Assembly (NCBI GenBank): GCA_027012135.1
Contig: JALUZF010000262.1
Location: 1 to 50,290 of the forward strand
Direction of reading: 5' to 3'
From: Gammaproteobacteria bacterium
GTDB lineage: Bacteria > Pseudomonadota > Gammaproteobacteria > GRL18
DNA: 50,290 nucleotides
Below the pieces are notes generated by a model. It worked only from the letters and a program-made list of their open reading frames with translations, was not told where the DNA came from and searched no databases. The position numbers and the translations under genes are program-made. Within the stretch, counting starts at the first letter, position 1, and each line of letters opens with the position of its first letter. Shown here in pieces: positions 20,374 through 29,899 of the stretch.

Positions 20374-20805
20374 TTATTTTTGAATATAAGGCCGGCCATC
20401 ACATTCCTGCTTAAGGGCAGCCACTTCCTGTTTATATTCTTTTACCGCCTGGTTATATGCATTAACTTCCTGTTCATACATATCGACAGTATCATTAAGT
20501 TTCTGGTTAACTCTATTGTAGTGATCCACAGACTGAAGGTCATGCAGATTCAGTGCCTGTCCCAGGTTATCCCGCTGCTGCGTCAGTTCGCTAATACGCT
20601 GTTTTAACTGCTCAAGTTCAGCCTGCTGTTCCTGCAATTGTACCGCTTTTTGATTGGACTGCTGCGTTCGAGCCTGACATTGCTGGTACTGTTCCAGCGT
20701 TAAAGGCTCCAACTGCTCTCCTTTGACCTCTGCTTTAGCTTCTTCCTGAGCATAAACAAGAGCACTCAGACACATAAAAACCAGACTCGTTAAAAACACC
20801 CGCAT
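20374..20805 (-). CDS. small secreted coiled-coil protein, function unknown
   Basis: I do not recognise a family. The 143-residue product starts MRVFLTSLVFMCLSALVYAQEE, a signal peptide with an AxA-like cleavage site. The mature part is very rich in Gln, Glu and Lys, with heptad-like leucines (LQEQQAELEQLKQRISELTQQRDNLGQAL and DTVDMYEQEVNAYNQAVKEYKQEVAAL), so a periplasmic coiled coil is likely. Two cysteines (QYQQCQ and QECDG) bracket the coil and could form a disulfide. ATG 20805 has GAGGAG seven nt upstream. It starts 31 nt after the histidine kinase and probably belongs to the same operon. Confidence 0.75.
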   Translation of the reverse strand: MRVFLTSLVFMCLSALVYAQEEAKAEVKGEQLEPLTLEQYQQCQARTQQSNQKAVQLQEQQAELEQLKQRISELTQQRDNLGQALNLHDLQSVDHYNRVNQKLNDTVDMYEQEVNAYNQAVKEYKQEVAALKQECDGRPYIQK

Positions 20806-20836
20806 AAAAATTCTCCTCACCTAAACCTGTTCCCTG

Positions 20837-23374
20837 TTACTTATGAAAAAACTCTGCTAATTCTGCCATGGTATCAGACAGGGCAGCCTGCAGCTGATTT
20901 AATAATTTCGGATAATCCACACCTTCTTTTATTATGCCTTCTTTCAGACTTAATTCCAGCTGTTCAGCCATATCACCCACCCGATTAATACCCAGTGATC
21001 GGGAGGCCCCTTTTATTTTATGTGCCATTTCTGAAACTTGCCGGTATTGCTGTTGCTCGTAAGACTGCCGGATCTGCTCAAAATATTCAACATAAGTATC
21101 ATAGTATTTTTCCAGCAGTTTCTTCAACAGTTCAGCATTATTATTTAGACGTATCAGAACATCTTCCAGATCAATACACTGGAGAAAACTAAAAAGATCA
21201 GAACCTCTTTGCAAATCCTGGTTCTCAAGCAGGCTGTCCATAACACTGGACATAGAACCCGATGGCGACTTACTTTCAGTCTGCTTTGGCTCGTTATAGG
21301 AATCCATTTTCAAACCCTGTTCTTCCAGTACGGATTTATTTTCAGCCTGTGCGGCCATATCTAATTCATTTTTCACTGCCTCTTTATACTCAGGCAGGTC
21401 AGAATATTCTTTAATCAGAGTATTAACACCCAGCCAGCGCTGCAGTGCTGCATTAAGCGTTTCCATCTGAACCGGTTTACTTAGATAATCATCCATACCC
21501 GCTTCCAGGGCAGCTGAATTAGCATCGGAATAGACATGAGCACTAAGGGCAATAATGGGTGAGGAAAAGCCAAAGTCTCTCAGCTTCCGGGTCGTGGTAT
21601 AGCCATCCATAACCGGCATCTGGATATCCATAAGAACCAGATCATAATAATGGTTGCCCTTTTTCTCAACCAGTTCCAGCGCTTCAGCACCATTATTGGC
21701 CAGTTCCACATTAAACTCCATGCTTTCCAGAATACTGCTGATCACTTCCAGATTAACCGGATCATCATCTGTCAGCAGAATAATATAATCACTATTATTT
21801 AAATGTTCACTGGACTGAACTTCCTGGGAAAGTTCCTGGATCTTGGCATTTTTTATCAGTTCTTCCGGAGTCACTTTTTTAAAGTTCAAGCTAAAAAAGA
21901 AACGACTGCCTTTACCCTCAGTACTTTCCACCTGGATTTCACCACCCATTAAACGGGTAAGATTCTGGGAAATAGCCAGCCCCAGGCCTGTTCCACCAAA
22001 TTCTCTGGTAATGGAATTGTCAGCCTGGTGAAACACGTTAAACAGTTCATTTAATACTTCTGATTTCATACCGATACCGGTATCTTCTACTGAAAAACAA
22101 AAACTGATCACGTGCTCTGTTTCTTTTAGCAATTCCAGTCCGACAGTAATTTTGCCATGCTCAGTAAACTTGATAGCATTGGATACCAGGTTATTAAGGA
22201 TTTGTTTTAAACGAAATGGGTCACCAATCAGGTAACCGGAATTTGAGGATTCCAGAAGCAGTTCAAGCTGCAGTCCTTTTTCTGCAGCCTGGTTAGAAAA
22301 GGTTTCCTTAACATCCATCAGTACCTGGTTGGGCTGGAAAATAATTTCTTCAAGTTCCAGCTTGTTCGCTTCAATTTTAGAAAAGTCCAGAATATCATTA
22401 ATGATGTTCAACAGCAGCGCACTGGAATTAAGGATCATTTTTGCATAACGCTTCTGTCGTTTTTCCAGGTTACTGTTCAGTAATAATTCTGTCATTCCGA
22501 TAACGGCATTCATAGGGGTACGGATTTCATGACTCATGGTTGCCAGAAATTCACTCTTGGCACGACTGGCGGCATCAGCCTGTCGGGTACGTTCTTCTAC
22601 CAGGGCTTCCAGGTGTTCCCGGTATTCATTCAGTTCAATATCCCTGAGCTGTATCTGGGCCAGCATTTCATTAAAGCATAATCCCAGTTTGGCCAGTTCA
22701 TCGCTACCCTCCACATTCACCCGCAATGAATAGTCTTCTTCGTTGGAAACGCGGGTACTGACATCAATAACATTATCAATGGGTTTAGTAATGCTTTTCT
22801 GCAGATATTGCCAGATCAGATAGGTCAGCAGGTTAATCAGCAGAAATACAATTAACGCAACCAGTATCACCCAGAAAATATGCTGATAAAACCGACTTAG
22901 GGAGATCTGTAAAATAATTTTTCCTATCACTTCGTTATCAAAGCGAATATTGTGCTTGATCAGCAGGTGATTATTTTGAAAAACAATACTGCTCTTTTCA
23001 CCGGGACTGCGTTCAAACTGAAGATCGTCTGGACTTAAACTAATAAAATCACGATGACTCTGATCAATCATATATTTAGACAATAATTTATTGTTCCTGT
23101 TATAAACATAGGCTGCATCTACATCGGGATTAATACTGAAGGCGGACAATGCCTTTGAGATATAGTTATTATCCTGAAACAGAATCGCTGAACGGATATT
23201 CAGACCAATGCTTTCAGCCAGTACCGCATGATGTCTTATCATGGCCTGGCCGTTAAAATAGATTTCTGTCATCACAAAAATCAGACACCCCAGTGCAATG
23301 GCTATACTTGAGGTCAGCATGGTCATAAAAGACAGCTTCTGTTTAATGCTCTGATGCTTTTGAAACAGCTTCAT
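20837..23374 (-). CDS. CHASE8-like hybrid sensor histidine kinase with REC and Hpt
   Basis: An 845-residue inner-membrane kinase. TM1 (about 14-36) and TM2 (about 165-190) enclose a periplasmic domain of the CHASE8 type seen in the diguanylate cyclase YfiN ([48 protein letters not shown]). Then come HAMP (about 190-245), HisKA with H282 in [11 protein letters not shown], HATPase (N box about 393-400, [15 protein letters not shown]), REC with acceptor D583 in [12 protein letters not shown], and C-terminal Hpt with H785 in [12 protein letters not shown]. Its ATG overlaps the stop of the YfiR gene (ATGA). No dedicated response regulator is nearby, so the relay target lies elsewhere. Confidence 0.93.
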
Positions 23375-24000
23375 TGTTTTATCCTGTCGGGTTCACTGAT
23401 GATATTACCCAGTTTTAATAATTCTGAACCAATACTAATATTCAGTCTTTGTGCTGCTGTTTTGTTTACTTCAAACCGGAGATGCAAGTTACTCCGGATT
23501 AAACGAAAGATAACCTTGTTTTCCAGTGTTTTAAAACTGACCGACTCATCCGTTAAATCAGTTATCGTTATCCTGTTTTTTAGATTGCCTGTATCATTAA
23601 ATTTCAGAAAACGCTGTAAAGTGGATGTCGGTATCAGGATAACATCACACGGCTCTGTTATTCTATCTGATTTAATAACTCTGGACTGAACTTTACGAAA
23701 CTTAAGTCTTTTTCCTGTCAGGATCTCAAGTCCATCATACAGAAAATTTTCCTGATACAGACAAATTTCAATCACCTGTTTATTACGGAATCCGCTGTTT
23801 TTTTGCCATTGACTGAAGCGCACTAGGTTGCGGATAAAGGCCGCTTTAACTTTTAACTGCCGCTCATATTCAGCAGAATGCGTATCAGCATATACCACAA
23901 TAGACAGATCGAATAAAACAAATACAAATACCATACTCAGCACATATTTTAATATGCCCGTCCTGTATTTCCGGGGATAATATTCAGCGTATTTAAACAA
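23371..24000 (-). CDS. YfiR/DUF4154 periplasmic protein
   Basis: A 209-residue protein with an N-terminal hydrophobic signal (about 18-38, ending near VVYADTHS) and the DUF4154 (YfiR) pattern: [97 protein letters not shown]. Family knowledge: YfiR represses the inner-membrane cyclase YfiN by binding its periplasmic side. The start is TTG 24000 with AGGGG upstream; later starts are possible. It sits 11 nt after the TonB-dependent receptor and overlaps the kinase by 4 nt, so the three are translationally linked. Confidence 0.9.
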
Positions 24001-24011
24001 GATAAATACCC

Positions 24012-26024
24012 CTAGAACGGGTAATGCCAGGTTAATTTACCCCAGACCTCCCGGTCCGTTCTCTGGGTATTGTATGCATCTGAAAAATCACCCGCTGGAT
24101 CAAATACCTTTTCATCAGTCAGATTTTTAACTCCAAGCTGGTAGGATATATTATCAAGCAACTGTCCATGAGCATTAAAGTCTAGAGTTACAAAACTGTC
24201 GGGGTCATCCCGTTTATCAGGAAACCGGCTATCATTGGTATCTTCCCTGCTGCTGTTATAAAAAGCTGACAGGCCGATAAAGTGTGAAGTCATCCATTGA
24301 TAGTCAGCAAACAGGCTGGCATTCCATTCTGCTATATAAGGAATATTATTGTATTGCCTGTTTTGTGCTTTCAGCCAGCCCAGGCTGGCTCTTAAGGATA
24401 TTCTGGATACGGGTCGGTATTCAGTTAATACCTCAATACCATGCATACGCCAGGTACCATTATCATTAACAAAATATTCATCTTCAACATTGGATATAGT
24501 AGGCGCATCTGCCTGCTTGATAAAATCTTCAAACTCATTATAAAATCCGGTAACGGAAATATTGGCATTCTGCCATTGATAGGCATAACCCAGTTCAACC
24601 GTCTGCATTTTTTCGGTATCCAGTTTGGACTGGACAAAATCAGGCACATCCAGGACTTTCAGGTACTCCCTGTAAGTGGGTTTTCTGACACTGCTGCCCC
24701 ATAAAAATTTGAAGGTCTGTCTGTCCGTAGGAGTATACACCAGTGCAAATCGGTAATTCCTGTCATTATCAAAAGCATCAAATGCATCATAACGACCGCC
24801 CAGTGTCATGGTCAGTTCATCACTTAATTCCCATACATCCTGGATAAATAAAGCATAGTCATTATTCTGTTCACCTGGTACGGTTAATAATGAACCAGAC
24901 TTAGGTATCAGATAAAACCCATTGCTGTGATCCCAGTACCTGGTTTTATCCATATCCTTTGCTTCATCGTGCTGCCACTCTGCACCAATGGACAAAGTAT
25001 GTACAGAGAACATTTTTTTAAACCAGGTGGATTTAATACCATAGTAAACAGCATCCCTGTTTTCTTTATAGGCCTTTTTGCCTGTAGTCTGCTCAAACTC
25101 CTTTTCGGCTGCCTGATCATCGGTAAAATAAGCAATGGTTTCCAGTTTACCCTGCTGCAGATCACCGAATTCATAATGCAGTGAGACATTATACGATTCA
25201 GCATCGGTATTAATATTGACCAGCCCTGGCGCAAATACAAACGGAGTATCCATAGCCTGATAATTAAAGCTTAGCTGCAACCCTTTTACTGGCTGTGCTT
25301 TAAAATACAGATTGGTGTAATCTTCATCCCGTGGTTGTGATACTTTATCACCTATAAAACTTTGCCTGTTTTTTCTAAAGGGTGCATCCTGATCCAGATA
25401 GCTGACAAAGCCCTGTAACTTCTGACTGTTATAGAAAATCTTGCCTCCTGTGCGGCTGTTATCTCCCACATCCAGGGTGGTTTCCACATAGGAAGTCTGT
25501 GCATTTTCTGTAAAGGGACGGGTTGTTACTGAAATAACACCGGCAAAGGCATTGGCGCCATAAAGGGAAGAAGCCGGGCCGACAATGATTTCTACTTTAT
25601 CAACTTTCTCCAGAGGCAGATTTTCACCATCGGCAAAATCACCATAATAAACATGCTGCATGGGCACACCATCCACCAGCATTTTCATTTTATTGTTATA
25701 GCGGTCAATGACGCCTCTGGCCCACACCGAGCGATGACGCTTTTTGTACTGGTTCTGTTGCAGACCGGGAACATAGTCCAGCAGCTCATCAATAGTTCTG
25801 ACACCAAGACGTAAAAAGTCCTTTCGGTTGAAGCTGTAAACCGTACCGGGTGCTTTTTTTATTTCCGTCGGCAGCATGGAAGCGGAGGTGAAAATCTCCA
25901 GCGCCATTAATTCCTTAAGACTAAGCTCGGTATAATCTTCCCCGGATGAGGACTCAGGATAGCTGCTAACGGGCAATAACAGACTCAACCAGATAGCGGC
26001 AGATAGTAGCCGATTATTTCGCAA
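24012..26024 (-). CDS. TonB-dependent outer-membrane receptor
   Basis: A 670-residue outer-membrane receptor. A signal-like N-terminus (LLSAAIWLSLLLPVSSY) is followed by YTELSLKELMALEIFTSASM, the pre-plug motif common in receptors encoded beside YfiR genes. A plug domain (PGTVYSFNRKDFLRLGVRTIDELLDYVPGLQ...VEIIVGPASSLYGANAFAGVISVTTR) leads into a long beta-barrel ending with aromatic HYPF. The start is taken as TTG 26024; the true start may differ slightly. The substrate is unknown. It is the first gene of the operon with yfiR-like, the hybrid kinase and a secreted coiled-coil protein. Confidence 0.93.
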   Translation of the reverse strand: MRNNRLLSAAIWLSLLLPVSSYPESSSGEDYTELSLKELMALEIFTSASMLPTEIKKAPGTVYSFNRKDFLRLGVRTIDELLDYVPGLQQNQYKKRHRSVWARGVIDRYNNKMKMLVDGVPMQHVYYGDFADGENLPLEKVDKVEIIVGPASSLYGANAFAGVISVTTRPFTENAQTSYVETTLDVGDNSRTGGKIFYNSQKLQGFVSYLDQDAPFRKNRQSFIGDKVSQPRDEDYTNLYFKAQPVKGLQLSFNYQAMDTPFVFAPGLVNINTDAESYNVSLHYEFGDLQQGKLETIAYFTDDQAAEKEFEQTTGKKAYKENRDAVYYGIKSTWFKKMFSVHTLSIGAEWQHDEAKDMDKTRYWDHSNGFYLIPKSGSLLTVPGEQNNDYALFIQDVWELSDELTMTLGGRYDAFDAFDNDRNYRFALVYTPTDRQTFKFLWGSSVRKPTYREYLKVLDVPDFVQSKLDTEKMQTVELGYAYQWQNANISVTGFYNEFEDFIKQADAPTISNVEDEYFVNDNGTWRMHGIEVLTEYRPVSRISLRASLGWLKAQNRQYNNIPYIAEWNASLFADYQWMTSHFIGLSAFYNSSREDTNDSRFPDKRDDPDSFVTLDFNAHGQLLDNISYQLGVKNLTDEKVFDPAGDFSDAYNTQRTDREVWGKLTWHYPF

Positions 26025-29188: not shown

Positions 29189-29899
29189 ATGAATAACAAT
29201 CTTGTAAAACCCCGTGGACAGAGTTTAAAAATTGCAAAAAAATCAAAAACGACCCTGGCCGTCAGTGCTATCTTATTAGGCAGTCTTGCCTTAGGTGCCT
29301 GTACTACCATTGATCCCTATACCCGGGAAGAAAAAACCAGTAATGCAGCTAAAGGTACTGCCATTGGAGCCGTCGGCGGTGCAGTTTTAGGTGTGCTTGC
29401 CGGTGACAGCAGAAAAGCCACCCTGATCGGTGCCGGTATTGGAGCTCTGGCAGGTGGCGGTATTGGTTATTATATGGATACCCAGGAAGCCAAGCTTCGC
29501 CAGGAACTGGAAGCCACTGGTGTCAGTGTCACCCGTAGCGGTAATTCCATTATTCTGAATATGCCCGGTAATATTACTTTTAATACCAATTCCAGTGCCA
29601 TTTCCGCTAATTTTTACCGGGTCCTGGATTCCGTAGCCAAGGTGATTAATGAGTTTGAAAAAACTTATGTGGATGTCTATGGCCATACCGATAGTGTTGG
29701 TGATGCAGCTTATAATATGAGGCTGTCCCAGCAGCGTGCTGATGCCGTGGCAAAATACCTGGAAACCCGCAATGTTCTGCCCCAGCGTATTATGACCAAG
29801 GGAATGGGTGAAGATTATCCTATTGCATCCAATGATACCGCCGATGGTCGTTCGCAGAACCGTCGGGTAGAAATCAAACTAACCCCCATAACTAACTAA
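29189..29899 (+). CDS. OmpA-family lipoprotein with glycine zipper
   Basis: A 236-residue outer-membrane lipoprotein. The lipobox LALGAC places the lipidated cysteine at residue 38 after a long, basic signal sequence. Residues about 53-95 form a glycine zipper (AAKGTAIGAVGGAVLGVLAG...LIGAGIGALAGGGIGYYMD). The C-terminal OmpA domain (about 120-232) binds peptidoglycan through the conserved YGHTDSVGDAAYNMRLSQQRADAVAKYL block. It resembles YiaD-type proteins. A GC-rich hairpin follows the stop codon. Confidence 0.92.
   Translation: MNNNLVKPRGQSLKIAKKSKTTLAVSAILLGSLALGACTTIDPYTREEKTSNAAKGTAIGAVGGAVLGVLAGDSRKATLIGAGIGALAGGGIGYYMDTQEAKLRQELEATGVSVTRSGNSIILNMPGNITFNTNSSAISANFYRVLDSVAKVINEFEKTYVDVYGHTDSVGDAAYNMRLSQQRADAVAKYLETRNVLPQRIMTKGMGEDYPIASNDTADGRSQNRRVEIKLTPITN

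Follow-up and report, generated by a model that had tools for sequence, protein, structure and literature searches.

Here we report that a TonB-dependent receptor, a YfiR-like periplasmic protein and a CHASE8 sensor domain form a set of three envelope parts that are encoded together, recur across phyla, and co-diverge without the transmitter of the kinase to which the CHASE8 domain belongs. The best explanation, and in our judgment a probable one, is a trans-envelope module in which the receptor releases a YfiR-like repressor from the CHASE8 kinase. The signal driving YfiR-type systems has been uncertain, and the lipoprotein that serves as their outer-membrane partner in Pseudomonas is believed to respond to envelope stress. 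Should a ligand-specific receptor replace that lipoprotein in many phyla, kinase relays and c-di-GMP could both take input from nutrient sensing at the surface by way of a single periplasmic shuttle, and the input half of such systems could be studied apart from their outputs.

The set lies in a 50,290-nucleotide stretch of a gammaproteobacterial assembly (contig JALUZF010000262.1), referred to here as the window. It is a diverged variant of a kind already named by curators, for which we found no published mechanism in the open-access literature. Nor is it new in principle, as kinase and Hpt outputs are described by Malone et al. 2012 (PMC3375315) and a trio of NCBIfam models covers the three protein types. 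The present work adds how broadly the genes are linked, that the three envelope parts co-diverge, and that a seam runs inside the kinase; recurrence and co-divergence suggest a relay between cell surface and cytoplasm that is widespread but has had little study. The features are as follows.

24012-26024, minus strand: TonB-dependent receptor, 670 aa, with plug, barrel and signal peptide and without an STN domain
23371-24000, minus strand: YfiR-family (DUF4154) periplasmic protein, 209 aa, with signal peptide and predicted YfiR fold
20837-23374, minus strand: hybrid sensor kinase, CHASE8-HAMP-HisKA-HATPase-REC-Hpt, 845 aa
22910-23233, minus strand: CHASE8 periplasmic domain of the kinase, in which SAILF-QD aligns with AAVVF-AD of E. 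coli DgcN
20374-20820, minus strand: secreted coiled-coil protein, 148 aa, adjoining the module in the window's genus only

Open reading frames and Pfam matches place the three genes directly next to one another in the order receptor, YfiR-like protein, CHASE8 kinase. TTG is the start codon of both the receptor and the YfiR-like gene, in each case preceded by an AG-rich stretch, and the kinase ATG overlaps the stop codon of the YfiR-like gene as ATGA, the coupling that a first-pass annotation of this DNA had described and that can be read in the sequence. The flanking genes are, by family resemblance, presumably ubiK (upstream) and comM (downstream). With these two, the receptor and the coiled-coil gene as its neighbours, the window operon contains no gene for YfiB, an OmpA/Pal-like lipoprotein, and, as had been noticed at first reading, no response-regulator gene. 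An Rfam search gave no matches. Some 3 kb away from the receptor gene, outside the operon and on the opposite strand, positions 29189-29899 encode an OmpA-family lipoprotein whose counterparts in the sister genus occupy the same position; YfiB is likewise an OmpA/Pal-like lipoprotein.

Profile searches upheld the domain assignments of the first-pass annotation, which had placed a TonB-dependent receptor at the outer membrane, a YfiR-family protein in the periplasm, and a CHASE8 N-terminus on a kinase with HisKA-HATPase-REC-Hpt output. Plug (3e-20) and barrel (1e-35) are the receptor's sole Pfam matches over the cut-off, with no STN signalling domain among them. The YfiR-like protein matches DUF4154 (YfiR/HmsC-like; 8e-21, 75 bits against a cut-off of 24.9) and the kinase N-terminus matches CHASE8 (2e-10, 41 bits against 27). 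The HAMP, HisKA, HATPase, REC and Hpt domains each score above their Pfam cut-offs, the kinase translation holds the phospho-acceptor motifs of HisKA, REC and Hpt (AHKIKGAS among them), and Pfam finds the HisKA-HATPase-REC-Hpt series in the place of a GGDEF output. A model of the YfiR-like protein built from 41 relatives reached a mean pLDDT of 88, and all 15 chains retrieved at E<=0.001 in a fold search of the PDB were YfiR structures. PDB sequence searches with the YfiR-like protein and CHASE8 as queries yielded no true relatives, and a single-sequence model of the kinase N-terminus (pLDDT 56) was set aside.

The published YfiR/YfiN contact residues appear from alignment to be conserved in the window system. 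In the mapping by Malone et al. 2012 (PMC3375315), AAVVF is the site on YfiN to which YfiR binds, and the corresponding surface of YfiR consists of hydrophobic residues around Phe162 near the C-terminus. With E. coli DgcN and E. coli YfiR as alignment references, SAILF and then QD stand at the AAVVF contact position of the window kinase; of 107 CHASE8 proteins, 99% have this Phe and 94% the Asp after it. LRFEVN of the window YfiR-like protein aligns with VRFAVN of E. coli, a region conserved among relatives and, judging by the motif, probably the region of Pseudomonas Phe162. The first Cys pair is present and the second YfiR disulphide pair is missing. These sites also bear on the idea that the YfiR-like protein is a small-molecule sensor, in which case the receptor would import a ligand and the ligand-YfiR complex would act on CHASE8 much as a binding protein does. 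The YfiR fold does bear a remote resemblance to substrate-binding proteins (E ~0.002, TM 0.36-0.44), and a ligand sensor would account for the receptor and CHASE8 covarying with the YfiR-like protein, but the strongly conserved sites are those of YfiR-YfiN contact, and we regard this idea as improbable.

Several known systems come close to the window set. YfiBNR (AwsXRO, TpbB) of Pseudomonas and YfiR-DgcN-YfiB of E. coli likewise set a YfiR fold next to an inner-membrane CHASE8-HAMP protein; they have, however, a GGDEF output where the window has kinase-REC-Hpt, a YfiB lipoprotein where the window has a TonB-dependent receptor, and the second Cys pair that the window protein lacks. In NCBIfam 20.0 the models NF053590 (TOL_0244 receptor), NF053591 (TOL_0243 YfiR-like) and NF053592 (HK near YfiR-like) describe the same three protein types side by side. 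The window receptor finds its best curated match in NF053590 at 143 of 645 bits, the YfiR-like protein reaches 45 of 125 bits against NF053591 and the kinase 140 of 194 bits against NF053592; all are below cut-off, and the window proteins therefore represent a diverged branch. Sister triplets in the same genome come closer, with a YfiR-like protein at 127.6 of 125 and receptors at 625 and 631 of 645 bits.

In the account of Malone et al. 2012 (PMC3375315) the YfiR-YfiN core is modular, GGDEF being replaced by GGDEF-EAL, Hpt or sensor kinases, including a hybrid-kinase case with two YfiR genes in Thauera; their degenerate Yfi operons, like the window, combine a YfiR homologue with a YfiN-type sensor on a (hybrid) kinase. 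A text search of that paper found no mention of TonB, and no receptor is described there. Our search of the open-access literature, which is weak evidence of absence, found no paper linking YfiR/DUF4154 to TonB receptors. FecA-type transducing receptors resemble the window receptor as proposed here in being TonB-dependent and signalling inward, whereas the window receptor has no STN domain, no adjacent FecR or sigma factor, and as partners a soluble periplasmic protein and a kinase. TOL_0244, the curated receptor closest to that of the window, rose sevenfold on n-C28 alkane relative to Tween 80 and has been likened to Alcanivorax OmpS, implicated in alkane detection (PMC6304351). Alkanes are a first ligand class to consider, as a lead only: the window receptor is far from TOL_0244.

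The arrangement is not confined to the window. A profile search of its genome found five DUF4154 genes, four of which (the window set and three more) stand in triplets of receptor, YfiR and CHASE8 kinase, one of them with a kinase that carries additional REC, Hpt, GGDEF and EAL domains by fusion. The fifth belongs to a YfiR-CHASE8 kinase pair interrupted by a contig end; another contig begins with a gene for a REC-GGDEF protein that shares 83% identity with the regulator encoded after the equivalent pair of a sister species, so that by sequence comparison this system very likely feeds a diguanylate cyclase. The two contig starts in question, G000:C142 (L007) and G000:C219 (L217), are probably pieces of one split operon for a YfiR-like protein, a CHASE8 kinase and a REC-GGDEF protein.

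DUF4154 occurs in 16 of 115 genomes drawn evenly from the class. A combined survey of class and family comprised 66 DUF4154 genes, counts that include one genus's orthologues and are not independent; 55 have a CHASE8 neighbour on the same strand and 30 a receptor beside them. The receptor is not obligatory, as 36 of the 66 have none on the same strand. This number favours a reading in which the YfiR-like protein and the kinase are the signalling pair and the receptor is regulated uptake cargo that never touches the YfiR-like protein. The lack of the STN domain of known transducing receptors favours it too, as does the proposal that TOL_0244 is an alkane uptake receptor (PMC6304351). We nonetheless consider the cargo reading unlikely, on evidence from the comparison of trees and from receptor-YfiR pairs given below.

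When a one-genome-per-species collection was queried with receptor sequences only and the downstream genes were then inspected, 45 of 64 receptors at the best 80 loci had DUF4154 just downstream, and 43 also had CHASE8 nearby; these loci were ranked by similarity to the window receptor's group, and 70% is not the rate for receptors at large. Conserved linkage of the three genes, on which the reading of the first-pass annotation depended, is thereby supported. Among the same best 80 loci the linkage spans at least 10 phyla, with linked receptors in Gamma-, Beta- and Alphaproteobacteria, Desulfobacterota, Nitrospinota, Nitrospirota, Planctomycetota, Verrucomicrobiota, Armatimonadota, Gemmatimonadota, Deferribacterota and Wallbacteria, phyla being assigned from the titles of the genome records. 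Most carriers have 1-5 DUF4154 copies per genome (one has 9), and ten genomes with linked receptors, no more than one or two of them by title from Pseudomonadota, have 1-4 each; because the family is so sparse, and yet 45 of 64 receptors have a member downstream, chance adjacency is negligible. In 59 adjacent triplets the median gap is 9 bp between receptor and YfiR and -4 bp between YfiR and the CHASE8 protein.

Several loci depart from the simple triplet. L170 has duplicated receptor-YfiR pairs on both sides of one CHASE8 kinase. In G055, the genome with 9 DUF4154 genes (L047, L049, L051), several are paired with a receptor and have no CHASE8 protein nearby, the paired receptor at L049 and L051 being of a different type. 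Three further loci (L087, L088, L090) have the order YfiR-like protein, receptor, CHASE8-GGDEF, with a YfiN-like cyclase and a receptor of another subtype. A docking motif specific to YfiR-linked receptors was sought and rejected: the N-terminal signature L-x-L-E-x-L-M...VTSVSKK is common to linked and unlinked receptors, and so marks a receptor subfamily and not a YfiR partnership. It lies at what we take to be the position of the TonB box in BtuB/CirA.

Evidence that the receptor belongs with the other envelope parts comes from mirror trees of 44 triplets with a HisKA domain. With the window's orthologues excluded, pairwise distances correlate between receptor and YfiR (rho 0.39), receptor and CHASE8 (0.51) and YfiR and CHASE8 (0.49), with 0 of 500 shuffles as high in each case; a non-redundant subset (n=33) gives 0.42, 0.50 and 0.48. 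The HisKA-HATPase transmitter correlates with none of the three (0.02 to -0.12; up to 0.17 and not significant in a 35-triplet subset). Positive controls behaved as such (HisKA/HATPase-REC 0.41, plug-barrel 0.48), but the plug-CHASE8 correlation was weak (0.20), which counts against the module. Since the envelope parts correlate with one another and the transmitter, although on the same polypeptide as CHASE8, does not, an evolutionary boundary runs through the kinase gene and separates its sensor from its transmitter. Joint duplication of receptor-YfiR pairs ahead of a single kinase (L043, L209, L211) and the kinase-free pairs of G055 point the same way. Receptor distances that follow YfiR and CHASE8 but not the transmitter encoded with that CHASE8, like receptor-YfiR pairs that duplicate jointly and can occur without an adjacent kinase, argue against mere uptake cargo. 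The pattern fits an input cartridge of receptor, YfiR-like protein and CHASE8 but is no proof of contact, since block inheritance of the operon with exchange of transmitters can give similar co-divergence.

The trans-envelope module agrees with the envelope-to-cytoplasm relay suggested in the first-pass annotation, which is upheld as the best reading. By analogy with YfiR on YfiN, the YfiR-like protein would bind CHASE8 and lock the kinase in one state. A ligand-loaded or TonB-engaged receptor (two TonB-like proteins are encoded in the genome) would then capture it at the outer membrane, the job of YfiB in Pseudomonas, and this capture would free the kinase and begin the relay. Phosphate would pass from His to Asp to His through HisKA, REC and Hpt, and on to a response regulator encoded elsewhere. 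The direction of control, repressing or activating, is borrowed from YfiBNR and may differ here.

The likeliest kind of end point for the relay is a REC-GGDEF diguanylate cyclase, since in many relatives such a protein is fused to the system or encoded by the following gene. A linked GGDEF is found in 27 of the 55 CHASE8-linked loci (9 directly, 3 by fusion to the kinase and 15 through the following gene), comprising kinase/REC-GGDEF operons, GGDEF-EAL fusions and CHASE8-GGDEF(-EAL) proteins. These relatives suggest a c-di-GMP output, which for the window kinase is putative. Alternatively, and compatibly with the trans-envelope module, c-di-GMP may play no role and Hpt may pass phosphate to a transcriptional response regulator for the receptor's uptake pathway. 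The window operon has no GGDEF gene and 23 of the 55 loci have a kinase without an adjacent regulator, as this alternative would have it; the physical linkage of GGDEF in the 27 others, the probable REC-GGDEF target of the genome's fifth DUF4154 system and the 50 GGDEF matches in that genome weigh on the other side, and we lean somewhat against it. More broadly, the TonB-dependent receptors of this group may be viewed as a further widespread signalling class that reports ligand to CHASE8 through a YfiR-like shuttle, with receptor, YfiR and CHASE8 as one input cartridge and kinase relays, GGDEF-EAL or both as exchangeable outputs, a generalization that we put forward tentatively, at nearly even odds.

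The first-pass annotation had listed the coiled-coil protein with the operon; as a fourth component of the system it is not supported, since synteny argues against it. In the window's genus its gene adjoins the kinase wherever the module is present (5 of 5 genomes), but it is missing from all orthologous loci of the sister genus g4, where distant homologues, if found, share 25-34% identity and lie elsewhere in the genome; in G020 a homologue stands beside ubiK without the module. The gene is probably a neighbour and not a core part, perhaps co-transcribed with the module in the window's genus. Its product gave weak Pfam and NCBIfam matches, all below cut-off, that look like coiled-coil noise. 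The protein and its relatives (L105-L115) have two cysteines in the mature part, and distant homologues in the family occur at unrelated loci. The module itself occupies the same ubiK-comM place in several g4 genomes, and either entered this site long ago or is an old module repeatedly lost. In G015, G009 and G023, ubiK and comM are directly adjacent without the module; such junctions in three sister-genus genomes (L121, L127, L132) are candidate empty sites.
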